From assembly GCA_900073065.1 (NCBI GenBank), contig FJOG01000058.1, positions 33,769-97,768 of the forward strand: DNA of 64,000 bases, read 5' to 3'. This document shows, piece after piece, positions 15,654-57,968 of the stretch. This DNA comes from Phialocephala subalpina. Lineage: Eukaryota; Ascomycota; Leotiomycetes; Helotiales; Mollisiaceae. The notes below the pieces were generated by a model that saw only the letters and a list, made by a program, of their open reading frames with translations, searched no databases and had not been told where the DNA came from. Every line of letters begins with the position of its first letter. The first letter of the stretch is position 1. The translations under genes and the position numbers were made by a program.

Positions 15654-17571
15654 TCACAACACCTCAGCACTCACTTCCTCTTCCGGTTCCGGCCCCAACT
15701 CCCTCAAACTTCTTTTCTTCTTCTCCCACCTATGCAACCAAGCCACTGTCCCAGTAATGCCAAACTGCGCCACAAACGCGCAAGTACTATACACGAATCC
15801 CTTCCTGAACTTCGGAGCTTGCTTCACAGGATAGGTCAATAGTGGAAGCCATGCATTGAATGCGTAACCGGAAGCGTTCATGACACCGAGAACGATAGCT
15901 CGCTCTTCTGCGTCGGCGCCGCACTACAAAAAGTTAGTATGTGGTTTCAAAGGATGCTGAGGAGTCGAAGAGTCGAGCTCTTTGGGAGCTCGACTCCCTA
16001 CGGTATAGTAAATTCAGGTCAGGATTTATACATACGATTTCGTTCGCCCATGACATGCTGAGAGGACCGTAGGGGACGGCGGCTCGACTGATAAAGTAGG
16101 CGAACCACTTTAAGCCGCTGGGAACGGCCCAGATTGCGAGGACGAGGGAGGAAAAGAAGCCAAAGAACTGGAAAGGTCAGTGTGGGGAATGAGAGGGATT
16201 TTGGGAAACGGACTGTGGAGATGGACATCACAGCTGGTCTGTTGCGGAGGAAGTCGCTCAACATTGCGAAACTGACTGTTGTGACGAGTTGGACCGCGCT
16301 TTGGCCTGTTGGGATGATGTTCTTCTTTATTAGCTTTAGCTCGCTTATTTTCTGGAGATTGACTTGCGATTTCAGTAACAGGCCACCCCGTGGACTTCAG
16401 CCACAGTGCTAAAGGTGAGACACTTGACGAAGGACCGGTGTTGATGAAGATGATGTACAACACGGTCAAGGCATACACGTGCCATCTCGTAAACACTCTC
16501 CTCAGAATCGACCATCCCAGCTTCCTTCTCGGAGATCGTCCAACATCATCCATCCTCTTCCTCGCCAATGCTGCATCATCGTTGGTCAGGTAGAATGCTC
16601 TAGTATTCTCGGGTAGGTCAGGGATCAAGAAGAAGCCCGCGAGACAAATGGGTGTACTGATTACTCCATCCATGATGAAGAGCCATTGCCAGCCAGCCTT
16701 TCCGAGATGACCGTTGAGCCCTTTGTATACAGCTGCTTGCAAGTACCCTGAGAACATTCCGGCGGCGGCGGATGAGGCGTGAAAAATGCAAGCTCTCTTA
16801 CCCAACTCAGAAGGCTTGCTGCGGGAAATCTCGGAGTTAGTATTACTTCTTCAAGGCGGGTTTCAAGAAGAACAGGGCTGAATGAGGAGGAGGAAGTATG
16901 TTTCGGGACGTGCATTATGTCTCACGGCTCCAGAAACAAGCTGAATGGGGAATAAATAACTCAGAGAACACCCACTACCATGACCCGATCAGGAAGTGCG
17001 CTGCTGGGTAGAAGATTGACTCAACCAATCCAACAAAGAAGCGAATTGCGATGACTTGATTTGAAGTCGTTGCGGCTGCGAGACAGAAAGTGAGGATCGT
17101 CCAGACCAGCTCACATGACGGGATCCATATTGAGGGACGGACTTTGGTCAGGATGAATTGTGAGGGAAGCTGGCCGACGACATATCCTGTGGTCCAGGCT
17201 ACATCGATGAGGTTCAGTTGGTTGGCATTCATCTTCAGCTGCTCTTTCATTCCGGAAACGTAGGCGTTGGAGATGTTGGTTTGGTCTAGGTTCTTGATGA
17301 AATAGCCTAGGGAGAGAATGGTGAGAAGTCCGAAGTCGAGCTTCTGAAGGAATTTGATCTCTTGATGAGGTCTTCCTGGATCGTAGTCCTGTCCATGGTA
17401 AGTGATGCTTCATCATAATGATGCTGAAGGTCAACGCACCCAGACATAGGACCACCAAGGAGCCTTCTTTTCGTTGAGCACATCAGAGCCGCTACCTTCA
17501 GACTCAAACTCAGTAGTTACTGCTCGTGCATTGCCGTCTATCCGTTTGTCGTCAGATTTATCGTCCGACAT
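15654..17571 (-). CDS. MFS anion:cation symporter of the Dal5/allantoate-permease type
   Basis: The start at 17571 (MSDDKSDDKRID) is preferred because the tail that follows is hydrophilic and leads directly into the first span. Recognisable segments are NLIDVAWTTGYVVGQLPSQ (span 2 and the conserved GQ), the RFFVGLVESIFYPAAHFLI stretch, then GWQWLFIMDGVIS and LPENTRAFYL, all typical of the fungal ACS family. Later exons read NIIPTGQSAVQLVTT and NASGYAFNAWLPLLTYP; the C-terminus is GPEPEEEVSAEVL. Yeast relatives Seo1 and Yil166c are thought to carry sulfonates or sulfur compounds. It is divergent from a TauD-type dioxygenase, which supports uptake of an organosulfonate. One intron (15924-16035) is an introner-like element. 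No lesion was seen in the exons. Confidence 0.83.
15924..16035 (-). mobile_element. Introner-like element, copy A (intron of Dal5-type transporter)
   Basis: A 112-nt intron in gene orientation starting GTATGTATAAATCCTGACCT and ending in a TTTTTGTAG acceptor after a branch-point-like CATACTAAC. Its centre has a perfect 11-bp inverted repeat (GAGTCGAGCTC, five-base loop, GAGCTCGACTC). It aligns without gaps to the 112-nt intron at 49076-49187 in an unrelated gene, with 91 of 112 matches by my count. It sits between codons for Ile and Cys. Confidence 0.9.
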
Positions 17572-18369
17572 GGCTACTAAACTGTAGGAGTGCCTCGGTC
17601 TCGAGCTCTGTGGCGTCCTCCTGGGAAACATGCGTGGGCCCGACATCCATTTTATTGAATGCAGAATCGCAGAGAAAGGGAGTATGGCGCCCAGCTTCAG
17701 CTCCGCCGTAAGGCCCGTAAAAGTGGATGATGTGAATTGCCAACTCGGATGTCAAATTGCGTGCTGAGGATGACCACAGGATGCCGGAGTTTTGAAGCTG
17801 CGATCACCCCGTCAAAGTTGTTCTTTGTAAGGAAGCAACGACCCAGAGTTCCAGAAATGCAACCATCCCGCCGCTGCATGCGTGTCGTGCTTAGGGAGGG
17901 ATGCCACGAGATCCGGATGAGATCCGCTCAGGCGAAGCCCTATTCGACGCAGACGGGCATTCCGGTAAGATAACAGATGCGATGGCCTTTCAACGACTCG
18001 GCCGCCAATCATTTAGGTGGGATATGGATTGCTAGGACGAGGTTGTGAGTAGTTGAAAGTGTCGTGAGGATAAGGTTGAAGCACGCAATCCGCAAACCCC
18101 ACACTTCGCGAACCACTCAGGGGCGTCGCATACCAGATCAACAACACAGCTACCCCTCGTCTACCCCTCATTTAAAAGACGCCATTGGTGATCGAAAGTG
18201 CGGAATGAAGATAATTAGAAATCAACAACGCGTCTCGTACGATTACTCCGTGTCAACGATAAGGTTTCCGAGTAAATAAGTGTTCAAGTGCTCCCAGCAA
18301 CCACTTGGCGATATCAATAGTAATTATCAAGTACATCCAGAAACAGAACATCAATCACCAATAATCAAC
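17572..18369. promoter_or_regulatory. Divergent intergenic region, Dal5-type transporter / TauD-type dioxygenase
   Basis: About 800 bp shared by two divergently transcribed genes that probably work together. No motif can be assigned with confidence by eye. A common regulator responding to sulfur limitation is an inference from the gene pair only. Confidence 0.4.
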
Positions 18370-19656
18370 ATGGCTCCATCAGCAACAGAACCTACTGTCC
18401 TCCCAATCGATTCTCGAATCAAAGACTTCGTCGTCCAAAAGAAAGACACGGTCCCCCTCCCCACCTCCGCACGTGCTCGTCTCGAGAAGTCCGGCATCGA
18501 TCTCAGCAACGGCTACCCAGAACGCCCCGCCAAGCCCCTCTACCTCCAAGATGCCATTGAGATCCGAAACGTGGATCGTGAGCACGTCGATGCTGGAGCA
18601 AGAGCCGACAAGTCCAAGAGTGCTCTGTTCTCTGCTGCAAAGGAGATCATTGATCTGACAAAGCATATTGGGACTGAGATTGTGGGCTTGCAGTTGAAGG
18701 ATCTGAATGATAAGCAGAGAGATGAGTTGGCGTTGTTGATTGCGGAGAGGAGTGTGGTGTTTTTCAGGGATCAGGATTTGACTCCTCAAGACCAGAAGAA
18801 GCTCGGGGAGCACTTTGGCGAGGTTGAGATTCATGTAAGTGTTGAATTCGCTTTGCATAGCCTTGCTGATCAATTGTAGCCTCAAGTTCCGCATGTGCCT
18901 GGTGTGCCTGGTGTGACTATCATCTGGCCTGCACTGATGGCTACGGAGAGGAAGGCATCTTTCAGACAGCCAGGAGGTGCTTCAAGATGGCACACGTATG
19001 TTCTAACCTAAACGCGTTGAATTTTGACTGACATTGGTAGTGATCTTGTCCATGAGAAGCACCCCGCAGGTATCACTCACCTCCACAATGACACCGTTCC
19101 ATCAATCGGTGGTGACACCCTCTGGGCCAGTGGCTACGCAGCATATTCAAAGCTTTCTCCAGAATTTCGCAAGATCATCGACGGTAGACAAGCCATCTAC
19201 GTTTCCGCACACACCTACCTCGACCGCAACGACCCAAATGCTGGACCAAAGCACATCGAGCGCATCCACCCTATTGTTCGAGTCCATCCCGCAACTGGTT
19301 GGAAGTCACTGTGGGTCAATCGAGCTATGACAAAGTCGATTGTGGGCTTGGATAAGGCCGAGAGTGATGTCATTTTGAATTATTTGTACGATGTGTATGA
19401 GAACAATGTCGATATTCAGGTGAGGTTTAAGTGGACGCCTAAGACGAGTGCTTTGTGGTAAGTACATACCAAGTTCATCGCGGGATGAGAAATTGACGAG
19501 GACAGGGATAACCGCATTACGATTCACAATGCTTCTTGGGATTACGAGGGATCCGAGCCGAGACATGGGACGAGAGTTACGTCTTTGGCCGAGAAGCCAT
19601 ACTTCGTTGCTGATGCACCATCAAGAAGACAGGCGTTGGGCTTGCAAGATGATTAG
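18370..19656 (+). CDS. TauD/TfdA-family Fe(II)/2-oxoglutarate dioxygenase (sulfonate type)
   Basis: Exon 1 (18370 to about 18834) runs from MAPSATEPTV through HIGTEIVGLQLKDLND and RSVVFFRDQDLTPQDQKKLG, the usual TauD N-terminal half. After an intron, PGVTIIWPA and SRWHT meet DLVHEK across the next splice site, giving the iron-binding H-x-D (WHTD). Exon 3 has GGDTLWASGYAAYSKLSPEF; the last exon has TIHNASWDYEG (distal His) and RHGTRVTSLAEKPY (2-oxoglutarate-binding Arg). All catalytic positions are present and the length is normal (about 380 residues). The yeast homologue JLP1 releases sulfite from sulfonates and sulfate esters. With the divergent Dal5-type transporter it probably lets the cell use an organosulfonate as sulfur source. 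Confidence 0.88.
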
Positions 19657-20043
19657 ATCACGAGTCCATGTAACCCGCATATCTTTGGGAAGGAGCGACC
19701 ATCAATGCATAAGTTCCTTCTGAGAAGATATTAACTTTATGCTGCAGGCGCTACCATCGCCAAGCCTGGCCGAAGTGATAAGTGCAACTGGACAAATTCA
19801 TTTTGGAAGGAACGAGCTCGCTTTTGCCACGAGACATTCAACTGGTTCAGGAAAGATCACATCAATCATACGTTCACCTTTACCTTCAAACTTCCACGAA
19901 AAAGAGCTTCTCTACCCCACATAACCCACCGAGTGCTTCAAAACCTGCCCGGGCGTCTCATCATACCCCGTCAGTACCATCCATTCCTTCACACTCTTCA
20001 CCCTTGTTGGTAAAATCTCATCCAGCAACCCATAATCCCTCTT

Positions 20044-20976
20044 TTACAAATTATCCTTCCAACTATTCCAAAAATTCTCCCTAATCGTAAACAACGTCGG
20101 ATCATTTAAATTGCCACCCTCATTCGTGACCTTCGCCTCTGGATTCGGGAAGATGGGAAAGCTGAAATACTGATCTAGTGAGACGTCCATATAGATGGCT
20201 TTCTTGCCAGTTATGGAAGAGAAAGGGGAAGCGAGATCGGCCCATGAGATGTCTTCTGTTGCGACGTTAAGGTATAGGCCGTTCGAGAGAGGGGGTGTCG
20301 AACATCCAGCGGACGTGGAGGGCGTAGTCTTGTAGGTATATTAGAAAACATTTGCTGGCTCCGAGGGGGATGGCGAACACTAGTGTGTCGGGTTCGGAAG
20401 GGCGGGGGAAGGGTTGCATGAGTTCGTTTAGACCTTCGATGTAGAGACAGGATGTCAAGATACTCCATTTCATAGGGGATGTTGGTTGAGCGGAGATGTA
20501 GTCTGAAACTTTGCCTTTGCCGTCGAGATATCCAGTTCGGTACTTTGGGTCGAAGTTCCCGAGCTTGGAGGCATAGATGAGACCTGCGTAGAGGAAGTGC
20601 TTGACTTTAAACTCGGCTGCGAGCTCATAGACGCGGATTTCCCAGTAGATTTCTGCTTTCTCGCCGAGGGCGAAGCCGTTGGTGTTGGTGAAGGCATAGG
20701 TGCAGCCGCTGAATGCTTGGCGAAGAGTAGGTTCGTGGTAGCTGTCGCCTTCGAAAAGCTCAACACCCGGGAGGGAGGAAAGGGCTTTGGCGGACTCAGA
20801 GGTGGAGGATCGAGTAAGGACTCGACAGGAATACTTGCCGTCCGCAACAAGTGCTTGCTCGAAAAGTGAGTCTGTTGAAATGTTTTGGGGAGGAGGATAA
20901 TTGAGGTACCCTTGACGACTGAATTTCCTTGTGCACCTGTGCCACCAATAATTAGCACGAGGTTCTGAGAAGACAT
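20044..20976 (-). pseudogene. NmrA-like NAD(P)-binding protein, one frameshift
   Basis: MSSQNLVLIIGGTGAQGNSV shows the NmrA Rossmann signature GGTGxQG. An intron follows, and then the frame gives VRVLT-like text, LPGVELFEGDSYHEPTLRQA, CTYAFTNTNGFALGEKAEIY and KVKHFLYAGLIYASKLG, all family-typical. PFPRPSEPDTLVFAIPLG is present, but after the segment WMFDTPS the frame is lost and NGLYLNVATEDISWADLAS continues one base out, to the stop at 20044. The shift lies at or next to a run of five G (plus strand 20291-20295). This may be a true pseudogene or a homopolymer error; everything else looks sound. NmrA-like proteins sense NAD(P) or act as atypical reductases. Confidence 0.7.
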
Positions 20977-22280
20977 AACGAGATATTGCTGATAAACCTT
21001 CGCCAGGAAAAGAAGACTAAATTTGTTAATGAGAAGTCGTGTTCGAGCAGGAGGTAGAACAGGATCTAGACATTTATACCCTCATCTTTACCTCGTAGAT
21101 TTGAATGAAAACTGTCTACGTATCGTAAACTTGCCTTTCTAGCCTTAAATTGAAATCTTGGCCAATACGCACGGAGAAAGCTCAAAATGTGGAGGTGGAG
21201 TAAGTCCCGCGGATCGCTCATGGACCAAATTAGTCATAGTGCTGGGAATTTAAGGCCTTCGTGACGGAGAACACCCTCACTCAGCTTGGAAAGGAAATTG
21301 CGTTGATTACTATTCCTTGATGGTGCAAATATGCATGCGTCTGACTGTCCTTCTCTACCTGAATACAGCGCGAAACCTGCAGCGCCAGCCACGACTTTAA
21401 ACGTGGCGTTTAACCTCGTTATTCTGCTCGTCGTCAATACTAACATTCGCTGGCTCTCTCATATCGTGGGCGACCTTATTGTCGAAGCCCTTATAAGATC
21501 CTTATTCTATTCTAGGTACTCTTAGTATTGATCAAAGTGATGCAAGCAGCAAAACGTCGTCAAAAATTCTATTCCCGGCCAGCCTGTTCATGACCGATTG
21601 GAGACTTACCTTGTAATCGAAAAGCACGACTTCAACATCTTTCCAGATAATGAACCTAACCCGGTTAAATGCTTCCAATTTATTTATTATTCAACCAGGT
21701 GACAGATAGCCACGTGATATACATCCTCGTAGGAAATGTTTACGTAGAAAGGCAAGGTGAAGTATTTTACTATTTCAGTCAGACTTTCTTTTTCTTTCAG
21801 CCAAAAAAAAAAAAAGTTAAGGAAATTTATTAATCTGGCAGCCTGCGGATGCTCTGTTCATGCTCCCCTCTAAACTTCAGCTCTTGGCAAGCTAAGCTTG
21901 GCGAGACATGGGTAGCGCGTTTGACGCGTTTGGTTTTCGCATCTCAACTCTCTTTCTCGAATTGCCATTCATTGCAAAGCAGAGCACGATGTGTTTTTTG
22001 TCATTGGCACAGCGATTTGCCCCCAAAAATGCCATGCCCAGACTTCGGTGAACGACGCGACTGATGAAGCTTTAGATGAGAAGTTGGGAGGCTATCACAA
22101 ACGTTTCAGGCCCACGTCGGCGTCAACGCGAGTCAGGCGAAAAGTGTACACAAGAGATGATCTGTATACATTTTCCCATTCGACTGCACCGGAATCGAGC
22201 CGATCGCACGATGTCTTGGCCAAGACGTTGATGTTGTTGACTTCCGTTTTCACCGACGATGCCGGTGAAGGCTGTGGATC
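20977..22280. other. Intergenic, no gene seen
   Basis: About 1.3 kb. It contains an A13-type tract near 21803-21815 and scattered short frames on both strands without recognisable content. A forward frame at 21991-22314 has low support. Confidence 0.5.
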
Positions 22281-23042: not shown

Positions 23043-23912
23043 AGCAAGAATTTTCAGGAGATTTTCTCTTTGATACCCTAGTTGTGCTGGAAAGCGAGAT
23101 TGGGCGACTGCTCTGAGAGTTTGGGTTTGAGCCTCTATTCGTTTTGTGTTCCCTGTACCTCATCGGTCTTCTATTCAGCAGCTGGCTAGACAAGGACGTT
23201 CACATTCGGCAAAGTCGAGAATTCCTTGCAAAATACTCGCCAGGTTCTTCGTTGCCTCTGTGCTTGCTTCAATCTGTGCATTTACTCTGCTCAAAGCCTT
23301 GAAAGAGTTCCTTTGTTATTGATTGGTCCTGGAAGCTGGCTGGAGGACTAAGTGCAACATATAGTTCTTGGAAATGTCAATTTACGATCTTCGACCATGT
23401 ACTGCAACAGCTGCGAAGAAGTCCTGGAAATGTCAACTCTGAACTTAAAACCCGATCAATTACCTTTGAACAATGTGACTAAGGTCCGAGATTACAACGT
23501 TCCAATCCACTCCCTGCTACAGTCTGTAGTATTCTACTTGATTTTTCCTCATGGTTAAACAACGAAAATCGCAGCTCGAATTCGACCCCTCAAGCCCCCT
23601 TTCCATACTTCGCTAAGCATTTTCGAAGCCACTTCGAAAGTTGCTGGCTCTTAACCACCTTCGTTCTCCATCTTTTTAACGTCAAAGGTAGCAATACTAC
23701 AGGCAACATAGCATCTCAGTTGCTCTTCGTTGCGCTCACAATTGTAGATTATCTGAGAAGGTTCCGAAGAAAATTTCAGGTCAAACGCCAGCACGTGACC
23801 AGCACTTGATAGATTTGCGACGTGAACCCTGTTGATTGCGCCGATCAATACTATCAGAACTCAAAAGAAGAATGTTCTGAAATGGCGCTGTATTAAATTC
23901 AAGCCCGGCTAT
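23043..23912. other. Upstream remnant of the STAND-like gene and spacer
   Basis: 23043-23350 on the minus strand reads VNAQIEASTEATKNLASIL and similar coiled-coil-like text, probably the N-terminal exon(s) of the STAND-like gene, with an unclear splice or break near 23170. From about 23350 to 23912 I see nothing of note. Confidence 0.4.
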
Positions 23913-24981: not shown

Positions 24982-25024
24982 TGCGAGGGCTCTTGTTGTG
25001 GTGACTTAGATGGAACTTCGAATG

Positions 25025-28000
25025 CAGTGTGAGAAATTGAGTAGTACTCAATAGCGAACTAAGTGCTACTCAACTCAACTCAACCAAAATCTTAGGCTAC
25101 TCTACTTAACTCAATAGCTAATGAGTAGTATTGAGTAGGCTATTGAGTAGAATCACGTGGTTTGGAGCCGCAGCACTTAATTGGCTAAATTAGCGAAGGG
25201 GCCTAAGAGTAGGCCTAATTGGGTAGAGCGCCTCGCTTATTTAAGCTCTGAAGGTTTTGCCGATGCCGAAAACCAAGAACCCTCCGATAATTAACTCGAA
25301 GGATTTAATTAATAATAAACCGAATAAATTGTTCAAAAATATATCCTCCGGGACTTAAGGTCTCTCGGACACTTAGAATAACCTCCGAAAATTAAAGAGC
25401 CGAAATATTGTTCAGTTTATTAAATAATATATATAATTCGACGATTTCCTCGAAAATAATTATTATTCTCAATACAAACAATTCAATAACAACTCAACTA
25501 CATAATATATCTTCGAGATTTTTTTATCAAAATACTCTTTATTACTTGATAATGGCTTTTGAAACTATTAACTCTTTCAATCGAGCTCAAAATACTCTTA
25601 AATTTGAGCTTAATAATCCTTCCGAATAAAGTTCTTTTTTCAAGGCTAGTCTTTTCAAGAAAAAACTTGAAAAAGTTCAATTTAACCCTAATAATCCAAG
25701 AATGGTTATTATATCTTATTGTAATTGCTCGTAAGTACTTATATTTTTAATATATTTTTTGTTTTTAATTTTAAAATATTTATTAATATTTATAGGAAAA
25801 AATGGCCTAAACAACTAATTAATCATTCTACGAGCAACTACAAAGCACATTTTAAGTCTAGCCATAAAGTACTTTATGCTAAGTATTTGAATCCTGAAGA
25901 TAATAGTATATTCTTTTATATTTGGATTTTTTAATAATTTACCAATATTTATTTAGATGATTCTTTTAATGCTTCTAATTCTCAAATGAGTATTATAGAC
26001 TCATTTTCTACTATGAGAACTAGCAAACGACCGAGAATAAAGACTCCACTTCCTTTATTTAATAAAGATACCTTTTGGAGATTATTATTGAATTTTTTGA
26101 TATTAAATAATATTTCCTTTCGAGCACTTTCTAGTGTAACTTTTCGAGCATTAATTGAATACTTTAATTCGTTTGTATATTACTTATTCTATAGTATTTT
26201 TTACTAATTGATTAATAGGAATATCCTTAAAATATATAGGGTTATTTTAAAAGAACGATTAGATCTTTTTTATATTTCGAAATTAGAGATAATTAAGCTC
26301 GAGTTACAAGAACAAATTAACTCCGGCGGAGGTTTCTCTTTGACTTTAGATGTTTAGACTGCTATTAATTAAGACGCATATCTCGGAATTATTATGTAAG
26401 TTTTTTCTTTTAAATTAATTAAAGAAATATTTATTAATTTTTAAATCATTTTATAAATAAAGATTTCCAAATGAAATCTTATTTATTGGCAATAAAAAAC
26501 CTTACTAAAAAGTATACCGGAGCTTATATGAATCAAGTATTATGCGATACATTAGAAGATTTTAATATTTAAGATAATATTATAAAGTAAAATTAATTAT
26601 TTAATTATTTATTAAAAGTATTTAAAATTAATTATTAATAGTATTACAAGAGATTATACTTCTTCTAACGATATTTTGATTGATGGATTTAAGAGGTATT
26701 ATTCTTCAAAAGCTAAGACTTTTCGAGGAGATATTTATTATTTTGCTTATATTTTTAATATTATTATTTAAGAGATATTAAAAAATATTATTAAAGGAGA
26801 TTATATTCTTTTTGATGATAGAAATATTTATGCAGAAGATGAAGAAGATGAAAATCCATTCGAAGATATCTTAAGTAAGTTAATTCTATTTTATTTAAAT
26901 AATTTTTTTAATAATTAATTTTTTAATTTAGATTTTTCGATTTGGAAAAAAATTCGAAAAATTATTATTAATATCCGATATTCTTTAGAGAATTTACGAG
27001 TATTTAAAGATCAAGTTAAAGCTATGAAAATAGAAAAGGCTCGAGTTCTTCAATTTAATAAGTTTTTTTAATTTAATTCTTTTTAAAAATATAAATATAA
27101 ATATTTTTAGATCAAAAAACTCGATAATACTCAATAGATTATATGTTGACTTACTTTTTAATAGTAATTAAAGCTATTAATATTACTATTCTTCAATTAA
27201 TATCTAAAGCTTTTAGAGATAATAAGCTTTTAATTAGCGAAAAAAAACTTAAATATTTAAAAATTTATAAACAAATTTTCGAAGTATTTACTCGAGCTAC
27301 AAAGAAAATACAAGCCGAGAAATATCCGACGATATATTACTTAATGCCTGAAGTTTTTCAAGTATATAAAAATCTTAATAAACTTAAAAAAGAAATAAAT
27401 ATAAGTATTTTTTTAATTATTTAATTTTCGAATTAATTAATATTTAATTATTTATTTAATATTTATAAAGTAAATAACTAAAATTTTTTTAAAATAGGAT
27501 GCAAATATTACTCATGCAATTAATCAAGGTATAGCCAAACTAAGGAAATATTATCCTAAGGCTAGTATTATAAGCGATTCGAATAAAACTATATATATAA
27601 CTTTAGTTTTAGATCCTAGAATTAATCGAGATGGCTTAATTAGTCTAGGATTTGATTCTAGACAAATAAGTGACATTATTACTCTTTTAAAAAAAGAGTT
27701 TAATTTATAAGTTTATTTATTCTTTTCTTTAAATTTAAATTTTTAATTAATTTAAATTTTTAGTCTTAAGTAAGAATCTCGAATATCTTTACTTTCTAAT
27801 CAAGAGAATACTATTATAATAGAAGAAGATAATAATGATATCTATCTTACTACTATTAATATAGACGAAGATAATAAATTAAACGCTTATTTGGATTCTC
27901 TAAGAGTTATAAGAGAAATAAGTTTTAACTTTTTCACTTGAAATTTTTAACGTATTTTATTAATAAACTTTCTTATATTTTTTTATGGAAAAGTCGCTAA

Positions 28001-28567: not shown

Positions 28568-28575
28568 TTCGAATG

Positions 28576-31763: not shown

Positions 31764-31850
31764 GTGAAAGCCGTTTAGTAACCACGAAACAAAGCCCAAC
31801 TGCCGTGCAGACCCCGAAGCCTGATCTTAGATACTGGCGTCTGTTGTGTG
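31764..31850. repeat. Dispersed repeat, copy 1
   Basis: Matches 34257-34343 in the same orientation, including an identical core CCGTGCAGACCCCGAAGCCT. Most differences are C/T or G/A transitions. Probably a fragment of an old mobile element or a local duplication. Confidence 0.8.
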
Positions 31851-34256: not shown

Positions 34257-34343
34257 GTGAAAGTCGTTCAGTAATCACGAAACTAACACCCAATTGCCGT
34301 GCAGACCCCGAAGCCTGATCTCAGATGCCGGCGATTGTTGTGC
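34257..34343. repeat. Dispersed repeat, copy 2
   Basis: Second copy of the repeat at 31764-31850, same orientation, 2.49 kb away, so that the two copies flank the GPCR gene. The similarity fades after about 87 bp but short matches (such as AATACCC) continue. Confidence 0.8.
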
Positions 34344-43484: not shown

Positions 43485-43487
43485 GAA

Positions 43488-47400: not shown

Positions 47401-49522
47401 ATGAAGCCTGGATTGTATCAGTGGTTGATCGGTTGCTTTGCAGCGCTGGGATCATTTCTTTTCGGATTCGATCTTGGAGTTATTGCTGAGGTTGTAGCTT
47501 CTGATTCATTCAAGGCTTTGTTTTTGCAGAAAGATGCCGACTCGAGGTCTGGGACTGTGGTGGCCCTGTTTACAGGTGGCTGTTTCGTAGGAGGTAAGAT
47601 ATCTCTGCCCATTGTAACACTTCGCTCTCAGTCTTCCATCTAAATATTAGCGGCATGCTAGATGACTGACGTAAATTTTTAGCTCTCGGAGCAGGCTTCT
47701 CGGATAGACTTGGTCGAAGAGGGACAATACTTATGGCGTGTTGTATCTTCGTCGTTGGTGGTGTTATTCAGACTGCTGGAGTGGCTATTGCTATGCTATA
47801 TGTAGGCAGACTCATTGCCGGTATTGGAGTCGGTTTTCTGACTGTGAGTGGGATAATCTCCTCTCATCAAGTTTGAATTAACTCGAAGGCAGATGATCAT
47901 TCCCATCTACCAAGCAGAGATCTCCCATCGCAAACTCAGGGGTAGAGTCACTAGTCTACAGCAACTCTTCAATGCTCTTGGTCAGATCTTCGCTACATGG
48001 ACGGGATACGGATGCTACATGACTTGGACAGGAACTGGGGATAGCCGCGAATGGAGGATACCTCTCGCAATTCAGATCATCCCGGCACTCTTCCTCGGGG
48101 GCTTGGTCTATCTGTTCCCTGAATCTCCACGATGTATGCGTTGGGCGAGAACCCATGTCCTATTTTGTACTGTCTCGTGACTTTCTAACGAGAAGATGTC
48201 CCACTTTCCCCTGAAACAGTATTTATCGAGCGATTGCTGACTTCCCCGATACCTAGGGCTGTGCGATCATGATTACGCTGATCAAGGACTCAAGAATCTC
48301 GCCCAATTACACTCTCATGGCGATACAACGGATCCTTATGTCGTCGCGGAGTTCAAGCTCATTCAGGCGCAAATTGCGGTTGAGCACGCTCAGGAGTCAA
48401 AGACATATCTAGATCTTTTCAGAGGCTGGCCGAATCTCCGTCGCACGATTCTTGTGATGATGATACAAGCCGAATGCCGTAAATCATCCACATCCAAGAT
48501 CTAGACAGCTCAACAGTCACAATCTGACAAATTAAACAGAAATGACAGGTGTCTCAGCGATCCAATACTTCTCCCCCCAAATCTTCGCCCAAATCGGAAT
48601 TCCCAGTACGTGAACTTTTGCCTTTTATTTCAAGAGACGAGCTCTTCGCCAGAACTATGAACTCGGCTCCTCAGCTCCTCGACTCCCAAACCATACTTCA
48701 TATCTCATACTGATTTATCTATAGCTGGCACGACCCTCCTCCTCCAAGCCGTGAATGCCATAATAGCCTTTCTAGGCACTGCCGTATGCATCTCAATCAT
48801 CGACAAAGTAGGCCGCCGACCCATGGAAATCTGGGGCGCTGGAATAATGTGCATAACATTCATCATCAACGCCTCCCTCATCAAGATCTATCCCGCGACC
48901 TCCACCAACACTGGAGCACATTGGTCGTTCATCACCATGACATGGGTTTTCAACTTCGTGTTCTTCATCACGAGCGGTCCCCTTTCCTGGGCAATCCCAG
49001 CTGAGCTTTTCGGCACAGCGCTTCGCACGAAAGGTGTCTCATGGGGAGCGATGACGAGCTTTGCATTTAATACCAGTATGTATAAATCCCGCCCTGATTC
49101 TACCAGATTGTAGGAAATTGAGCTTCCGAAGAGTTCGGCTCCTCGACTCCTCAGTATCCTTTGAAACTACTTATTAACTTCTTGTAGTGATTGGACAGGT
49201 TACTCCAATTGCAATTACGGCGATTGGTTGGCGATTCTATGTCATTTTTATTATTTGTAATGCGGTGAATGGGGTGTTTTTCTGGGCATTCTTGCCGGAG
49301 ACTAAAGGGTTGAATTTGGAGGATATGGATGAGTTGTTTCGTGACTCTCCAACTTTTGTCCCCGGCTCCAAGTGGCAACCTAGCTCGCATATTGATGCTG
49401 ATGCTGAGACTATAGCGGAGCAGGAGGCGAGATTGGGGTTAGGGAATGGGAAGGCTGGTTGGGATGAAAGCATGCAGATAAGTGAGCATGATGAAAATGG
49501 TAAGGGTGGGGATTTGGATTAA
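47401..49522 (+). CDS. MFS sugar porter (hexose-transporter type)
   Basis: About seven exons. TM1 region YQWLIGCFAALGSFLFGFDL includes the GFDxG-type motif. Then LGAGFSDRLGRRGTILMAC (the D/N-R-x-GRR motif A), LYVGRLIAGIGVGFL, IPIYQAEISHRKLRGRVTSL (the PxYxxE-x-R motif), and PESPRW rebuilt across an intron with LCDHDYADQGLKNLAQ. The second half has SAIQYFSPQIFAQIG, KVGRRPMEIWGAGIM (second GRR), SGPLSWAIPAELFGTALRTK and PETKGLNLEDMDELF. The C-terminus is a long acidic tail. No lesion. A plasma-membrane hexose, quinate or galacturonate importer is expected; the sugar cannot be told. Two of its introns (48606-48724 and 49076-49187) are of the introner type. Confidence 0.88.
48606..48724 (+). mobile_element. 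Introner-like element, copy C (diverged, tentative)
   Basis: A 119-nt intron starting GTACGTGAAC and ending TCTATAG. The centre contains GACGAGCTCTTCG and CTCGGCTCCTCAGCTCCTCG, the same vocabulary as the other copies, but the ends do not align closely. It may be an older member or chance similarity. Confidence 0.5.
49076..49187 (+). mobile_element. Introner-like element, copy B (intron of sugar porter)
   Basis: A 112-nt intron, GTATGTATAAATCCCGCCCT at the 5' end and TATTAACTTCTTGTAG at the 3' end, matching copy A along its full length without gaps (91 of 112 by hand). It lies inside a Met codon (A, then TG) in NTMIGQ. The central stem is eroded by C-to-T and G-to-A changes relative to copy A. 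Confidence 0.9.
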
Positions 49523-50067: not shown

Positions 50068-52040
50068 TCACCGAGTTACCCATAATTGTAAACATCTAAC
50101 CTTCAGCTTTGCCTTTGAAAATCCTTCGTCAGTATCAGGAGTAGCTTGATGAAGAATGTCCGAGTCATTGCGTGTATTTCTGAACACGTCATCGGCCCAT
50201 AATAAGTCGATTTCTTCAAGCGTAAAATCTTTTGCTAAAATTGAAAAAGGCACTAAGTCAGCTCAAGTTTCAACGATACTGTCTCAATGTCTCGTATCTG
50301 TCATACTTACTTTCGACGACGAATATCTACGATAAGGCTGTTATGACACCTCTACCAAGACAGAACCAGATGTAAATGAGAGCGCCGACTTTGGGATTGC
50401 TGGCAGCCTGTCCGCCAAAGTAAACGGCTAGGAAGGCTACGAACCAAAAGACCAGGTTCGAGCCGGCCTGTACTTGACTTCTATACTGGAGAGGAAGGAT
50501 CTCAACGGCGTATAGAAATGCTAAAAAGTTCGTGAATAACCATTAATCCTACATCGTACTGAGGAAAAGGAGAATAGAACGTACCTAACCAAATCCAGCT
50601 GGCGCCATTGATAATATTGAAAAGGATAAGTACTACCACAGAACCCCACTGAGTGCTCTTCGAAGGATTCTTGTTGTTTGCGAGTCCAGTATAAATGCAC
50701 ATGAGTGTAGTGAGAGCCTTGAAAAGCGAAGTTGGTCAGTACTTTATACTCTTCTACGGGTCTGCTTCCTGTCAGACATACCGTTCCGCCCCAGCAAAGC
50801 ATCAAGCGTCTTCCAATCAGGGGTAGAATAACAAAACTGAGAGCCATTCCGATGGGTATGGCGGTATTGATAGCAGCCAGCGCTAAAGTTACCTGATCTC
50901 CCTGAATTCCAACGCCTTGGAGCAGAGCCTGTCCGTAAAATGTGATCAATTGGGCTCCGAAAAAGGGGCCTGCGATATTGATGAGGATAGAGATCCTAAG
51001 ATGTACGGGTCGTTAGCAAGATGACGAAAAAGCAAAAGTACACGAGCAAAAGGAAGCTAACCAGATGCGTCGCAAGTTCTTGGTTGGACTACCGTCACCT
51101 GTGAAAAGAACCTTCAGAGTCAGTCGCTTCGTCTGCTCACGCTCTAGCGCGATGGAGGTCAGGATGTCCCCTTTGACTTGGATGAAGCGTCCATCTGTCT
51201 CGTCACAATCGATCGGGCGTTTTATGGCGTTGTCAGCCTCTCCTTCCCGGCCACTGGCAAGCAACCACCTAATACAATATCAGTAATAGTCCATGAGTGG
51301 GCGTAATTGTAAGATCTACAAAGGACATGTGGGAGGGAAATGATCCAAAACATAAATGTAGGTAGATTTGTAACACACACCTCGGAGAATCAGGACAACC
51401 ATAAACCAAAATAAGACTTATGACCAGAAAAAGTGCCTGCATTGCCATGCGTCATGGTTTGGCGCCTTCAGCATAGCATAATCAAACCATGTAGCGACTG
51501 AGATACCGCCAATTCCCCAAAGCACCATGATCATCGTATCAACTGTCCGTAGTTTTCCCACAACACTGGACTCTTGCAAATATATCGGAGTGGTTGCAGC
51601 TAGGGCTGATATGAGTTAGTAAATATCTCGTCGTCGAAAAATGAGGGTATATGTATGTCCCCTTGTGAGCCACACTTACGCCCATTCGCGATACCATGAA
51701 TGACTCTTCCGACTAAAATCTGGACGGCACTATATCAAGAGTAAGTGATTAGTAGAATCTCCTCGAGAGATATGAAGAGAGAAGGCTTTAATTCACGAAT
51801 AAGCTGTGGTCTGCAGGATGACTCCGACTATTGCGATCCAGCAGCATAAAATGACTGTTCTCCGTCTTCCAAGGCGCCAACTTAAAGGAGCAACGACAGC
51901 AAGGCCAAGCACATCCCCGAGTAGAATACCGGCAGCAATGAAGGTGATGTATCTCGAGTCCGACGGATTGCCAATTGCGTCCAAGAAGGGTTGGCCAGGA
52001 CACCACCAATTACACCTTCACAGCGACAAAACAAACAGTG
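50068..52040 (-). pseudogene. MFS sugar porter, decayed
   Basis: Family text in order: VIGGVLANPS, then (one base out) DAIGNPSDSRYITFIAAGIL, LSWRLGRRRTVILCCWIAI, YLQESSVVGKLRTVDTMIMV, KAPNHDAW, then a frame change near 51445 to AMQALFLVISLILVYGCPDS, WLLASGREGEADNAIKRP, a transmembrane block FYGQALLQGVGIQGDQVTLA, GRRLMLCWGG, NIINGASWIWLG, EILPLQYRSQVQAGSNLVFW, GALIYIWFCLG, a stop (TAG at 50327-50329) and finally FTLEEIDLLWADDVFR. So there are at least two frameshifts and one nonsense codon. The pattern PESPRW is CPDSPR-WL here. It differs clearly from the neighbour at 47401-49522, so it is not a recent duplicate. The exact 5' end is unclear. Confidence 0.75.
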
Positions 52041-52911
52041 TCAGCCGGATGCCAGGAACATTCTCTTTGGGCGAGGACAGAACTCCTTATCTCTGAGACT
52101 GTCGGGACGCACACATACGCCATCGGGAACATGAGGCTGTCGCAAGGGCACAGCACAACCCCTGAGAATTTCTTGGCGTGGTATTTCAAGGCAGGACCCT
52201 GTAGAGCCTGACTATGTGCATGACAGATAAGAGCGATCCTGATCGGAACAGCATGGGAATAAATTTATTCCGTGCAAAACTCGGATGAATCACAGCTGCA
52301 AGATTGTCGATTCTATGAATCTAGGACAATAAAGTGGCTCTAGCTACATAACGTGTTATTCACGAGGCGTCTTCTGGATGTATATGAGGTGTTGCCAAGT
52401 TCGCTGGCTGGGATCCATAACGGCCATTCTGCTGTAAAGTATCGGCTTCAAGCACTCTAGAGCACTGCGGCTCTACCGAGTACCACTGCACTCGATCAGA
52501 GCCTGAGGTTTGAAACGGAATGATGACGGCCCTAGAATCTGTGCCACGGGAAGTCACTCCCGCGATGAGTTACACAGTAGAAAGGCACATCACTTATCTT
52601 AAATTTCAAGCATACCCTGTGCGACTCTATCTCTGCCATGAGAGGTCTCTCAAGCTATGACTTACAGAGTGTTGGTTGAGAACAATACTACTCAAGCGGA
52701 GTTGAATTTTCTGGAGAACACACCTCAAAACTTGGTAGACTCATCTTCTTTGACTTGCAATGTAGCTACTATCTTGCCTAATACGTCTGGTTATCGTCCA
52801 TTCTGATCTCCCGGTGGACTATCAACAAACTGAAAGCTTCCATCTCTGGTCGTGTAATGTGATGGAGCCGATTCTGGAAATACATGTATCTAAAAAAAGC
52901 ACCTTCCTCGC
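52041..52911. other. Intergenic, no gene seen
   Basis: About 870 bp upstream of the decayed porter and downstream of the decarboxylase-like gene. I see no motif-bearing frame, and no repeat with clear ends. Confidence 0.45.
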
Positions 52912-53572
52912 TCACAGCTTCCAAATACGCTCTCCTTCAGGAGCCCCAATAATCCCGGCATTGAGCGTCACTCCGTGAAGACTATAATATGCCACGAGTT
53001 GGATGACGTGCAGAGTCTGTTCCTTTCCCAATATAGCATTAGCCCGCTCCCATAGGTCCTACTCCAAAGGCTTGCCACCCTTGACCAACCGAATAGCCAA
53101 GTCGAAAGCCACGCCCTCCTTTTCACCCAGATCTGCAGGCTTCTCCCCTTGTGTGATCTTTCTCATCTGCTCTTCCGTCAATAATTCCTTGCCCACAGCG
53201 ATTCTCGAGTGTGAGTAGATAAGGAAGCCCCCAAAAGACCCAGTGTAGTGCCCCTGAGTTGCCAAGATTGCAACCTCGGTTACTGCTGGCTCCAACGCCG
53301 GGAGATTCAAGACCTCATTGTTCAAGCGCATCGTGTGTTTTGAATACTCTGGAGTATACATCATGATGGAGAGAGGCCCCAGAAGCCCGCCATCTTTTCC
53401 TTGTAAGGTGAATCTACAAATTTCTTAGTATTTGTTTGTCTCGCCAAGTGTATGCAGACACTAACGAAGATCCAAAGCCATTGCGTATCTTCTCTGTCAT
53501 ATCATTGTGGAAAACCCGCTGCTCGGGGGTCAACTTCTCTGGAGGTATTGCAGGATAGCGCGGTCCCGACAT
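52912..53572 (-). pseudogene. Carboxymuconolactone-decarboxylase-like (AhpD fold) protein with an internal stop
   Basis: The ATG at 53572 gives MSGPRYPAIPPEKLTPEQRV. After an intron (about 53413-53465) comes FTLQGKDGGLLGPLSIMMYT, then YSKHTMRLNNEVLNLPALEP and TEVAILATQGHYTGSFG, typical of fungal CMD-like proteins. The frame meets a TAG (53059-53061) after KGGKPLE, but the same frame goes on sensibly beyond it: DLWERANAILGKEQTLHVIQ and YYSLHGVTLNAGI, to the stop at 52912. A CAG-to-TAG change would explain it. Without the last 50 residues the fold would lack helices, so it is probably inactive. The family's CxxC redox pair is not seen. It is divergent from the P450 pseudogene, sharing a 375-bp region, which suggests a former joint pathway. 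Confidence 0.75.
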
Positions 53573-53946
53573 GTTGAGAAAGAGAAAAAAGTCCACATTC
53601 CCCAGAAAAGAGAAGTCAAGGCCTATTCTTACACACAAAAGGCGGGACCAAAGTTTTTCCAACGAGAGTTTACCACCCACGTTAAATCTTATCAGAAACT
53701 ATCATTAACTGTCGGCTGCTTGTCAGTCGCGGCCCGCGCACGACGGTGTTGTCCGCGTTGGCTCAACCCATCGGGTGCCGCCCATTGACCCAGGTCCGCA
53801 TCGTAAATGGGGGTTTGATAGGATGCCGTCTTCCGACAGCACACGATCCGGAAGACACAAAGACACGAAAAGAAGCAATGCCTCCTCCGAAATAGGGTTG
53901 CAAGGCCTGAATGACCCTGCTCTAGGCAATCAAAGAGTTCAAGATC

Positions 53947-55803
53947 ATGTTGCCCATGGACGCTTCCCTTCCAGTGCCCTTGTCGATAGCGCTGGTGGCT
54001 TCGTGGCTGTTGTATACCTATTTCAAGCCAAAGTCACGCTACCATCCTGGACCTACGGGATTGCCAATTATTGGAAGCCTGCTTGAAATCAATAACGAGA
54101 GACCTTGGATTACCTATGGAGAATGGGCCACGCAATACGGTGAGTCCCACGATCCATAAGACAACAAACCCATCGGTAACCAATGCTTACGATTCTCTGC
54201 AGGCGACATTGTTATGTACTGGGTGATGGGGAAGCCTGTGATCTTGCTGGGAAAGGTGGAACACGCACATAATCTAATACAGAAGCGAATGATGAATTAC
54301 GGAGACCGTCCCGAGTTAGTTGTGGCACAGGAGCTTGTTACTCAGAACGGATGGTATGTTGGCACGGCGAGAACAAAACACGACACGCATAGAAAGCAAC
54401 GGAGGATACTTGGCGAACGTCTTCGCGCGAGCACGCTGCGAGACTGGGCACACCCTGTGGAGATCCCCGAACTGCATCTCTTTCTTCAGCGTCTCACCCA
54501 ACATCCTGAGCGATTCGTTAGAATTATCAAGTGCTTCACAGTTAATGTCATGTTAAACACAACGTTTACTCACAGATCAATGCCCAGCCTAGACAATCCT
54601 CTCATCTCTCGCATCAACGAGGCTACGGATCACCAATTCACCTCACAAGTACAGAGGCGATTTTGGGTGGATTATTTACCATTCTTGAAGCATCTCCCAA
54701 CATAGCTACCCAGCATGGGCTGAAAGAAACAGGGACTCCAATGGCGAGAGGAGATGGATACGCTCTACCGCGAGCTGTGGGATGCTGCGAAAATGCGGAC
54801 TGGGGAGGACGGAGAAAGACCTCCATCTCTCGTAGAGTCCCTGCTCAAGACTTAAATGCACCAGATCACCGAAGCCGAGGGCGCAACGATTAGCGCAGCT
54901 ATGGTCGACACTGGAACGGACACACTGACTGGCACAACAGTAGTCTTGTGAGTAGAACATTATCAACAAAAACTGACGTTTCTTGGCTGATTGACGGCTA
55001 GCATGATTATCTTCATGTGCTTACCCCACACTTTGAAAAAGGCACAGGCAATAGTCGACGGAGCAGTCGGAAGAGATCGGCTGCCGAACTTTGACGACCT
55101 CGGACGAATCCCTTACATCACTGCTATGATTCGCGAAGCTTTCCGTTGGCGTACAGTCGCTCCAGTAGCGATTCCGCATGCCGTGGTTGCAGACGACGTC
55201 TACGACGGCTACTTTATTCCCAAAGGTGCAACTGTGTTTGCATTGTCGCAACATATTTACGAAGACGAGGAGCTCTATCCGGACCATGAGGAATTCAAGC
55301 CAGAAAGATTCCTAGACGATCATGGACAACTGAACACCCTGCCCCATGCTGGCTTTGGCTTGTGAGCTTGAAATCTTGCTCGCTATGAATCCGAACCTCA
55401 TCACTAATGCAGATTCTTATAGTGGAAGCCGCAAATGCCTCGGTCAGCACTTTGCTGAGCAAACTTTGTTCATTTGTAAGTTTCCGGCCTCGAACAGAGC
55501 TTGAAAGTGTGAAGTCATCACTGACAACAGTTCTGGAATTCAGTGATCTCAAGTTTCGTGTGGGCTTTCGATATAACAGCTCCTGTTGATGGCAAGGGAC
55601 AAAAGATTCCGCCAAGTTTGGACCCTATGGACTGGGGTGCTTTCATAGCCTCGTAAGTATACTTTCCTGCCGGTTCAAGTCTGCAACCTACCTGTGACTA
55701 ATTTGTTCGAAGACCGCCACCGATGGATTTTCAAGCCGTTATTACTCCACGTTCCCAAGCTGCAGTTGACGTAATTAACCGTGCAGTCGAAGGGGATAAG
55801 TAA
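53947..55803 (+). pseudogene. Cytochrome P450, inactivated by nonsense codons
   Basis: An N-terminal anchor (SIALVASWLLYTYFK) and a proline-rich hinge (YHPGPTGLPIIGSLLEI) start the protein. The middle has WITYGEWATQYGDIVMYWVM and THRKQRRILGERL. Three in-frame stops follow: TAG after FLKHLPT (54703-54705), TGA a few codons later and TAA after SLLKT (near 54853). Text around them stays readable (LQWREEMDTLYRELWDAAKM). The I-helix region reads AAMVDTGTDTLTGTTVV. The K-helix E-x-x-R is in MIREAFRWR, and the haem loop is FGLGSRKCLGQHFAEQTLF with its Cys ligand. So it once was a full E-class P450; two of the stops are W codons changed TGG to TAG and TGA. ER-membrane monooxygenase of a secondary pathway is inferred. 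Closest family group: OrdA/CYP64-like, tentative. Confidence 0.83.
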
Positions 55804-56084
55804 TTGAAATATATACTATACCCGGATCGGAGATACAAAGCTTCTTTTATACGACCGCATGGAATGGAATTCGAACTTTGGACTTCTTAGTGAAAGCAGA
55901 GAGCCGGCTCTGTCTGCGGGTGTACTTTCTCTTAATGTCTTAACTACAATTGGTGCACGTGATAAGGAGATCGTGGATCTGGGGTAGATTAGTTTCCCCC
56001 CACATAGTTCCGTCTGTGTCACAGGTTTCAGGTATATATCGTTGAACGGAATCTGTCATGAAATTTGACTATGCAGGTCAGTAT

Positions 56085-57968
56085 TTACTGCAGAGCTTTC
56101 TTCTCCAACCAAGCCTTGAACAGATGTAATGCCTCCACTGGCTTGTCCCACGGCACCATATGTCCGGCTCCATGAATTCTCACATATCTCAACAGGCCGC
56201 TCTCCCACCATAAGCCACCGCTCCAGGCTTGCTTGTTGTTTTCCTGCTGATAACGGAAGTCAGGCATGCCGTTCCACTTGAGTGATCCGAAGACTCGTTC
56301 ATTGCCCACAAAGTTACAAATCCAGTCGTAAGTACCGACATAGATGAGGACCCGAATTCCTGAATGAAGCAGAGCAGCAACGTAAGGTCGGGTGTCGATG
56401 ATGTAGTCATTGACTTTGCTGAATTCTTCGCCAACCTTATTGCTACACCCCTGGAATTGTGGTGCTTCCGGGTCAACTCCGAATGCGTTGCGGACTTTAT
56501 CGGTTCGCAAGAACTTGGTGACTGAGTTTATGATAGGGTAACACAGGTACCCGTCGCAAGGCTTACTGATGTCGTAATAGTTTCGTCCAGACCTGACATA
56601 CGGCATGTCAAGCTCCTCGCCGCAAAATTCGGCTGAAGCCTGGCAAATGAGAGGGTCCGGGTAGTCGTGGCATGCTGACAGTAAGTATTCGCATCTGCCC
56701 ACCGCTTCAGACATCCGACTGCAGACGGTTTCGTCGAGAAGAGGACCAATTCCAGTGACGTTGGTGCATGAGATATCGTAAGAAGAGCTTCCTTGCTTGG
56801 CATCACTGAAGATGCCATTTCCAATGAGAACGGACTCGAGCGGAATTTGCTCATCGGGGGTAGCGATCTTGTTCATTTCGTTGATGTGTTCCGCAAAGAC
56901 TGGGATGTAGTGTCCTCCGTAACTTTCCCCAGCAATTGAGAAAGGTAGCGACTTTGACTCGGGAAATGCTTTGTACCAAAGTCTCCTAAATCTGAGTCAG
57001 CATGCTTCTTCGTACACTTCGTTAGATTCAAATATTCCAGTGGTGCTGAGCCATGCATGTGCCTGAAAGTGACTGTCGGCTGCAAAATCTACCAACAATA
57101 AAGAGTAGGGAAGAATACTCCGAGAAGATGGGCTTCTTACATGAATGCATAGATGTCCTCGCTTGCTGCAAAAGTACCTCCTTGACCACCAGGAGCAGAA
57201 TGGTTCGTTGAGTAGGAAAATCCAACTCCAATTGGCTGGTCAAGGAAAAATACATTTGCTGCATTGATCCAGCTGTCGGGATTCTCTCTAGCCGAGTCCC
57301 CTCCTTCATTCACAGTACACGGGCCCAGTTCCATAAATAGACCCATCACTACAACATGTCAGCATGGGGTTTCAGAAGGTTGCTTCGGAGTCGAGGAACC
57401 GAGCTCTTTGAGCGCTCAAGACATGTTCCAAGAGCTCGACTCTCTACGAAATGGCAGATTCAGGACAGGAAGTATACATACTACTCGAACACCCAGGCCC
57501 TCCATTGAGCCATAGAACTAAGGGATCTGAGGCTGTATTCGTTCGCGACTCGAAGTAGGCAAAGTAAAAGTGCTTGGGCCCTGATTTCAGATATCCTGCA
57601 CCCCACGAACTTAAGTTAGTTTAATTCATTCATGCAATCTGGGGAGTACGGACTCTCGAGACAAGGGTGTAAGAAACAAGACAGAAAACTGGGGGTTTAC
57701 CCGTGTAACCCGACGTCGCTCCTGGGCATACATCAGCTAAGCTGGGCTGATCTCCTTTGACCAAAGGTTCAATGGAGTTATGGGCGTTGATTATGAGACT
57801 ATGTTCTGGGTGAGACTCGTGAGTGAGGACCCTGACTGGAGAGTCCCCAAAGGGTGTGGAAGATAGCTCAGAGGATGATCCAGCCCCAAATGCTATGGGT
57901 GTCTGGGACAAGAAGGAAGCTGATGTGCTTAAAGCAAGGGCGAGCAACGGAACGAACAGCCGAATCAT
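56085..57968 (-). CDS. Secreted serine carboxypeptidase (S10 family)
   Basis: Signal peptide [20 protein letters not shown]. Exons by eye give [20 protein letters not shown] then PGCSS; across an introner-like intron [59 protein letters not shown] and [12 protein letters not shown] (nucleophile Ser); ICNFVGN within [19 protein letters not shown] (Asp region); and [16 protein letters not shown] (His). The end is [12 protein letters not shown] at 56085. All three catalytic residues and the substrate-carboxylate-binding [10 protein letters not shown] are present; length is normal for carboxypeptidase Y-like enzymes. It removes C-terminal residues from peptides in the vacuole or outside the cell. 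The start at 57968 is chosen because it begins the signal peptide. It looks intact in an otherwise decayed neighbourhood. Confidence 0.9.
57349..57481 (-). mobile_element. Introner-like element, copy D (intron of serine carboxypeptidase)
   Basis: A 133-nt intron starting GTATGTATACTTCCTGTCCT and ending GCTGACATGTTGTAG. It matches copy A at both ends and in the GAGTCGAGCTC and CTCGACTCC stem segments, with about 20 extra bases in the loop. It interrupts the Met codon (A, then TG) of the sequence GPGCSSMMG, right after the substrate-binding motif. Confidence 0.88.

Follow-up and report, generated by a model that had tools for sequence, protein, structure and literature searches.

The 64,000-nt stretch of the Phialocephala subalpina genome analyzed here, referred to as the window (contig FJOG01000058.1, positions 33,769 to 97,768, forward strand), contains three introns, A, B and D, which form one family of introner-like elements (ILEs), designated ILE-1. 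A further intron of the window belongs to a second, related family, ILE-2, and the insertion motifs predicted from the flanks of the two families are reverse complements of each other. As far as the copies and their flanks can tell, insertion is shown to be exact and free of duplication, directed to one asymmetric target, and of a polarity specific to each family. The best explanation of the whole, which is considered reasonably probable, is that ILE-1 copies would create spliceosomal introns by exact insertion, with the site chosen at the DNA level and the polarity given by one end of the element, the L-end. The mirrored targets suggest that new introns may be placed on DNA, although placement on messenger RNA is the usual assumption for fungi.

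An earlier sequence-only reading had taken A, B and D for copies of a single sequence, and both the borders that it assigned (Table 1) and the relationship itself hold. A and B are each 112 nt long and identical at 91 of 112 ungapped positions, while D aligns with A from end to end at 68% with gaps; the likeness of the three is far beyond chance. Equally confirmed are the TG that follows all three introns and the A that precedes two of them (B and D; copy A has C there). The remark on TG thus stands, and the reading mentioned neither ILE-2 nor the mirrored motifs. The many further copies that it anticipated are present in the window's own genome (68.1 Mb, 119 contigs), which was the genome searched throughout. 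Copy A finds at least 40 matches including itself (40 of 90 candidates scored), each of which spans the complete 112 nt at 81-100% identity; copy B likewise finds at least 40, and copy D nine including itself, some of them partial. A 17-nt pattern of the 5' end (at most two mismatches) occurs at 110 places, compared with 41 for the reversed pattern; 83 are among the places listed with zero or one mismatch, one of which (L071) is without an element. The corresponding 30-nt pattern of the 3' end (at most three mismatches) occurs at 90 places, compared with 0 when read backwards. The collected set comprises 95 ILE-1 copies (90, with five added after the 3'-end search) and 95 distinct flank pairs. 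L071, L091, L093, L094 and L095 were dropped, having no element at the E cut-off used; L093 (C46:2974221-2974836) carries a short ILE-like remnant (GTACGTATAAATCCCGG ... TTTTGTAG) that stands outside the 95.

The site of ILE-1 insertion is readily apparent from the flanks. TG follows 82 of the 95 copies and T follows 89 (background TG, 7.6%), A precedes 58, and C occupies position -3 in 43. Among 81 ordinary introns of the genome the corresponding counts are 5 for TG after the intron, 1 for CA and 1 for A/T; these introns are heuristic predictions, not annotated ones, and a stricter set of 26 contains one TG. When each copy is left out of the motif in turn, 76 of 95 still have their true site among the best-scoring 5% of local exon positions. 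The resulting motif, GANNCNA/TGGNT (the slash marks the point of insertion), is a preference and not a rule, as copy A and the window's ILE-2 copy deviate from it. TG follows 42 of the 47 less diverged copies and 40 of the 48 more diverged ones, and no dependence on age could be made out. No target-site duplication (TSD) is found: flank repeats measure 0-1 nt in 89/95 ILE-1 copies, with none above 3 nt, and in 41/43 ILE-2 copies. A loss of target nucleotides is unlikely as well, since the aligned proteins continue without a gap across the junction. Complementarity between the ILE-1 consensus and the target does not exceed chance, as 831 of 2000 shuffles do equally well; pairing of an intron-encoded guide with the target was therefore rejected.

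For the second family, the starting point is a weak profile match to the intron lying about 350 nt upstream of B, together with others elsewhere, so that the sugar-porter gene of B holds two introner-derived introns. One ILE-2 copy used as query gives at least 40 genome matches including itself (40 of 64 candidates scored), at up to 92% identity. The ILE-2 set comprised 39 copies and later 43: motif scoring relies on the 39, and the phase-corrected test on the 43, of which 39 had usable frames (85/95 for ILE-1). L127, L139 and L141 were left out, as the pattern found no 3' splice site in them. CA precedes 33 of the 43 copies. The copies lie in open sense frames in 31/39 cases (antisense, 13/39), nine of ten host pieces have a Pfam match (pieces hand-picked as coding-looking, not random), and neither the tyrosyl-tRNA synthetase (TyrRS) host nor the asparaginase host shows a gap at the junction. 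Apart from a length difference of 3 nt, two copies from different genes show no mismatch where they align; therefore ILE-2 was probably mobilized recently. The consensuses of the two families align with a score of 64 in the forward orientation (shuffles 8.9, sd 8.1) and of 44 when one is reversed (shuffles 2.2, sd 8.6). As the forward score is the higher, the notion that ILE-2 is the reverse complement of ILE-1 throughout was rejected; the consensus hairpin being palindromic, this higher score is also the reason why the interior is called forward-homologous.

In contrast to the interior, the targets of the two families are mirrored. Under the ILE-1 matrix 33 of the 39 ILE-2 sites score better when reversed, as do 78 of the 95 ILE-1 sites under the ILE-2 matrix. 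Because codon periodicity could imitate such mirroring, the test was repeated with codon-position backgrounds. The phase-corrected motifs correlate at 0.76 reversed and 0.27 forward; outside the central six positions the values are 0.63 and -0.40, and 0/5000 position permutations are as high. Random sites of the same phase in ILE-2 hosts reach the observed asymmetry in 0/2000 draws, both for all positions and for the outer ones, and in 1/2000 for the core six alone. Consequently, both families appear to use GANNCNA/TGGNT, ILE-1 on the coding strand and ILE-2 on the template strand.

At the GANNCNA half-site, ILE-1 presents its intron 5' end and ILE-2 its 3' end in inverted form, and these two ends resemble each other. 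When scored against GTATGTATAAATC without its terminal base, inverted ILE-2 3' ends have a median of 10 matching positions out of 12 (in the 39 copies and also in the 43). The corresponding median is 4 for inverted ordinary 3' ends (n = 81), none of which exceeds 7, and likewise 4 for inverted ILE-1 3' ends. In the genome, C-N-A directly ahead of the L-end occurs at 38 places, versus 1 in the control: 18 are ILE-1, 16 are ILE-2 (4 of them new) and 4 belong to another repeat. The pattern was drawn up after both ends were known, and the count therefore speaks for exclusivity and is not independent support. The four other places (L142-L145, on C2, C8, C19 and C68) were rejected as a third L-end family, the similarity lying on the other side and the end running into an AATC-type tail. 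They represent a separate dispersed repeat, whose conserved stretch ends in GGAACCGAGTATGAATAAATC ahead of that tail and which may be a non-LTR or SINE-like element.

Most copies lie in the sense orientation within coding genes, which agrees with the earlier reading. With the element removed, 74/95 ILE-1 copies are flanked on either side by 90 nt or more of open sense frame, compared with 37/95 for antisense. Allowing for one ordinary intron nearby recovers 5 of the 21 remaining copies in sense and 2 of 58 in antisense, which leaves 16/95 unplaced by the open-frame test. A retained element would stop every sense frame in 87 of the 89 copies tested. In the swapped-flank control the open-frame count averages 51.5/89 (range 40-62), versus 69/89 observed; the control is high because most flanks are coding. 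By the codon-bias strand score the best frame is sense in 74/89, although codon bias is weak and just 43 copies have the same frame in both arms. Pfam matches at E <= 0.01, some of them below the curated cut-off, were obtained for 17 of 20 ILE-1 host pieces, which were hand-picked as coding-looking from 37 spliced ones and are not a random sample. The families include sugar transporters, GNAT, polyketide-synthase dehydratase, amino-acid permeases, NCS1 permease, TauD, AAA ATPase and aldo-keto reductase, among others, and several hosts are MFS transporters.

The intron borders prove exact in the conserved proteins that were aligned, namely six ILE-1 hosts and the homologues of D. All six hosts aligned to solved structures lack a gap at the junction: host D with carboxypeptidase Y, L065 with a lipase (the Trp at the junction is conserved), L097 with Hsp70, L098 (C51:2670360-2670990) with the U2AF 23-kDa subunit, L088 with beta-galactosidase, and L040 with WD40 proteins, Rsa4 among them, where the match shown has a one-residue gap three residues beyond the junction. 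The U2AF small subunit, whose gene (L098) thus harbors an ILE-1 copy, is itself a factor that recognizes 3' splice sites. GT-AG ends are present in 94/95 ILE-1 copies and a branch-like motif in 89/95; from these features and the seamless proteins we infer that the copies would be removed as spliceosomal introns. The exception, L055 (C54:324165-324780), ends in TAA instead of TAG, and its host may be mis-spliced or use another AG.

Recent copying, that is, intron gain by introner-like elements, had been proposed from the window alone and is supported by the copy number, the sense coding context, the exact borders and the existence of intron-less paralogues. In the two paralogues nearest to host B (47% and 58%), a single open frame spans the residue at which the intron is inserted. 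Among eight further ILE-1 host junctions a paralogue without a stop across the junction was found in six, and no paralogue was found for the other two. Altogether 7/9 ILE-1 hosts tested have intron-less paralogues; as far as paralogues tell, the ILE-1 introns are therefore not old shared positions. The protein of host D is 86% identical to that of Halenospora varia (Helotiales, Solenopeziaceae) and 80% to that of Mollisia scopiformis. Copy D interrupts the Met codon directly after GPGCSS, and this Met is present in 7/7 homologues that cover the position (nine aligned), five of them from the named genera Halenospora, Mollisia, Hyphodiscus, Glarea and Cudoniella. The host, then, already had the TG that now follows the intron. 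The possibility that the element brought in the TG was rejected, as the residues pre-exist (the Met of D and the conserved lipase Trp). A TSD in which a host GTATG is co-opted as donor would delete three host nucleotides and was likewise rejected, the protein alignments having no gap at the junction.

The ILE-1 copies themselves are 56-146 nt long, mostly 112, 120 or 104 nt, and 68/95 lengths are multiples of 8, owing to a variable stretch near CTCCTCGA. Steps of 8 nt occur inside this CTCCTCGA-like stretch in, for example, L050, L051, L023 and L053; two of these, L023 (120 nt) and L053 (104 nt), are near-identical copies 16 nt apart in length. Pairwise identity has a median of 0.857, with 0.982 for the best pair, and identity to the consensus a median of 0.9375 (n = 95). 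The tree is star-like, 86.6% of its length being terminal, and D falls in an older subfamily. The predicted folds are stable (mean z -1.94, 49/95 below -2) compared with exonic controls (mean 0.09, 3/94). Within the hairpin, the fraction of canonical pairs (0.916) equals the column-shuffle mean and two-sided changes number 6, against a shuffle mean of 7.0; selection for the hairpin after insertion was rejected, since compensatory conservation does not exceed the column shuffles. Complementarity near the ILE-1 termini is no longer than in shuffles, with a longest run of 3-6 nt, and no terminal inverted repeat (TIR) is found. The ILE-1 donor abuts the exon directly, without nesting. Regarding the distribution along the genome, contig C54 (1.02 Mb) holds 8 ILE-1 copies versus 1.4 expected (Poisson tail 1.2e-4, uncorrected for contig number) and 8 among the 40 ILE-2 matches listed, and may be a hot region.

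On the DNA-level reading, a sequence-specific, integrase-like enzyme would choose its site on double-stranded DNA, 5'-GANNCNA/TGGNT-3', and one end of the element, the L-end (S-TAT-NN-ATAAATC), would set the polarity. This end would be placed on the GANNCNA side, where it forms the donor end in ILE-1 and, inverted, the acceptor end in ILE-2; the inserted element would then be spliced out as an intron and decay. A wider formulation is put forward tentatively, with somewhat less than even confidence: fungal introners can be DNA elements, in which an integrase would read one 13-nt end and insert the element without duplication at GANNCNA/TGG. The end would serve as donor in one reading direction and, after a change of its terminal base, as acceptor in the other, giving two sister families with the same DNA target and opposite polarity.

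Several observations weigh against placement at the DNA level. The bias of the copies toward the sense orientation in coding sequence is not explained by the motif alone. Within the window, sites that score no worse than the median true site have a density of 9.2/kb in a proxy for coding sequence and of 5.2/kb outside it (about 1.8x); 182 of these sites (41%) are noncoding, and in coding stretches 127 lie on the coding and 138 on the template strand. The motif therefore covers part of the genic bias at most and none of the sense bias, for which coupling to transcription or selection must be added. It is from this same bias that others inferred an RNA mechanism. Furthermore, no transposase or autonomous partner turned up in one end-pattern search, no search having been aimed at them otherwise. 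The L-end was picked out only once the motifs were known. Uninverted ILE-2 5' ends also match the ILE-1 5' end, at a median of 7/12, and uninverted ordinary 5' ends match the L-end at a median of 5, with 5/81 reaching 9, because the donor is shared. The consensuses give the better alignment when both are read in splice orientation, which requires that the L-end has switched from one terminus to the other. The opposite end of the elements has no clear sequence in common.

The principal alternative is RNA-based transposition, in which the spliceosome reverse-splices an excised ILE into a transcript or into the DNA of an R-loop and the copy is then fixed in DNA. Reverse splicing is the prevailing published view for fungal ILEs (PMC8469720, PMC3443670), and propagation through RNA is also how PMC9860276 reports fungal introners to have been interpreted. 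Besides the arguments published in the first two, exact copies lying mostly in sense within coding genes, the lack of TSDs and near-terminal repeats, and the stable folds are all consistent with it. With fixed roles of the 5' and 3' ends, however, the same polarity relative to the coding strand would be expected in both families, whereas the motifs are reverse complements and their polarity follows the L-end and not the splice end; complementarity between the ILE-1 consensus and its target is also at chance. As reverse splicing does not predict mirrored targets, site choice at the DNA level is favored, and the RNA route is regarded as unlikely, albeit the strongest of the alternatives. Less likely still is the filling of double-strand breaks that arise at prone sequences in transcribed exons with an RNA or DNA copy of an intron, only sense, spliceable fillings surviving. 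This has been proposed for Xylariales (PMC12403724) and would fit exact A/T insertion without TSD as well as sense copies in genes. It would lead one to expect either orientation within a family, yet each family has a predominant polarity, and the published Xylariales sites are unbiased (PMC12403724).

The motifs could also reflect splicing or coding constraint on the exons around retained introns, instead of insertion targets. Splicing signals can extend into exons, the hosts are coding and show codon periodicity, and phase 2 is rarer among the TG copies (12/64) than the availability of TG predicts (979/2129), the 74 phase-resolved ILE-1 copies comprising 38 in phase 1, 21 in phase 0 and 15 in phase 2. 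The 81 predicted ordinary introns lack the motif, however, the effect survives both the phase-corrected and the same-phase controls, and residues at the junction are conserved in relatives (the Met of D, the lipase Trp, and a His of TyrRS in its best PDB match), which makes constraint very improbable. Finally, the likeness could stem from old shared introns or from gene conversion between introns of paralogues, without mobility. The fact that several hosts come from one large family, the MFS transporters, would be consistent with this, but the hosts as a whole span unrelated families, unbroken paralogues cross the site in most hosts tested, the tree is star-like, and two ILE-2 copies in different genes are identical wherever they align. 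Taken against these points, the probability of old introns or conversion is practically negligible.

Among known systems, the ILEs of Dothideomycetes (Cladosporium fulvum, Dothistroma, Zymoseptoria) are the closest in kind. They are described as rapidly degenerating spliceosomal introns, nearly identical between unrelated genes (PMC4457414), with stable predicted structures and an occurrence only co-linear with transcribed DNA (PMC3443670). ILE-1 shares with them the near-identity of introns in unrelated genes, the stable predicted folds and the absence of TSD and TIR. It differs in its occurrence in Leotiomycetes and in the presence of two families with mirrored motifs, a separation based on descriptions and not on sequence; moreover, its motif GANNCNA/TGGNT contrasts with the AG/GY preference reported for the Dothideomycete elements in an excerpt of PMC8469720, citing van der Burgt 2012. 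The sister stwintrons and cropped sister introns of Hypoxylaceae and Xylariaceae resemble ILE-1 in being proliferating, similar introns that are seamless and functional only on the coding strand. According to the published descriptions, those introns bear terminal inverted repeats of 45-55 nt or NTIRE-10 and are without exonic bias (PMC8469720, PMC12403724), whereas ILE-1 has no comparable near-terminal repeat, a strong exonic bias and no nesting. With a longest complement of only 3-6 nt, ILE-1 was rejected as a member of the sister stwintrons or as a bearer of Xylariales-type near-terminal repeats.

Introners derived from DNA transposons (Symbiodinium, Chrysochromulina, Aureococcus) have in common with the present families the multi-copy creation of introns, a site preference and insertion at the DNA level. 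According to the excerpt of PMC9860276, TSDs occur in 49 of 130 such families assessed and TIRs in 72 of 177, and some co-opt a splice site from the TSD. The ILEs described here, in contrast, carry both splice sites within the element and leave no duplication; they were not assigned to this class, as neither TSD nor (judged for ILE-1) TIR nor a co-opted splice site was found. Spy transposons of the PHIS superfamily move by cut-and-paste into a strong AAATTT target without TSD (PMC4482050). They encode a DDE transposase, whereas none is linked to the ILEs here, and their motif differs, so that the likeness is functional only. Helitrons also insert between A and T without TSD and have the ends 5'-TC ... 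CTRR-3'; membership was rejected, as the ends of the present elements, GTATGT...GTAG and GTACGT...ATAG, differ from these in either reading. In the one paper found that combines introners with Helotiales, ILEs are mentioned only in passing, and no description of mirrored introner motifs appears in the titles and abstract beginnings searched, although the species may still stand in published introner lists.

Table 1. Introner copies and L-ends in the window (positions count from the first letter of the window; the slash marks the insertion point)
Feature	Positions	Strand	Host gene or site
ILE-1 copy A, 112-nt intron	15924..16035	-	Minus-strand gene; site ACGAAATC/TGCGGCGC, without the usual preceding A
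ILE-1 copy B, 112-nt intron	49076..49187	+	Sugar-porter gene (Pfam Sugar_tr); site TAATACCA/TGATTGGA
ILE-1 copy D, 133-nt intron, older subfamily	57349..57481	-	Serine carboxypeptidase gene; site TTCGAGTA/TGATGGGT
ILE-2 copy, decayed	48606..48724	+	Sugar-porter gene of B; site AATTCCCA/CTGGCACG, lacking the T that usually follows
L-end of copy B (GTATGTATAAATC)	49076..49088	+	Intron 5' end, adjoins the GANNCNA half-site
L-end of copy A (GTATGTATAAATC)	16023..16035	-	From the copy alignment
L-end of copy D (GTATGTATACTTC, diverged)	57469..57481	-	From the copy alignment
Inverted L-end of the ILE-2 copy	48712..48724	-	Minus-strand CTATAGATAAATC, equal to the intron 3' end GATTTATCTATAG

Apart from the introners, the window contains a strongly AT-rich stretch of diverged repeats at about 26380-27970, presumably the remains of transposons mutated by repeat-induced point mutation (RIP), of which such a composition is expected. 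A 54-nt direct repeat with 89% identity is located at 31795-31848 and 34289-34342, at a spacing of 2494 nt.

The origin of new spliceosomal introns is a long-open question, in which the introners of Ascomycetes stand as an outlier without TSD or TIR (PMC9860276). Two related families with mirrored targets within one genome provide an internal test of site choice at the DNA versus the RNA level, and this test favors DNA. Furthermore, the sharp motif offers a direct starting point for the design of reporter assays, for the recovery of new insertions and for tracking down the enzyme.

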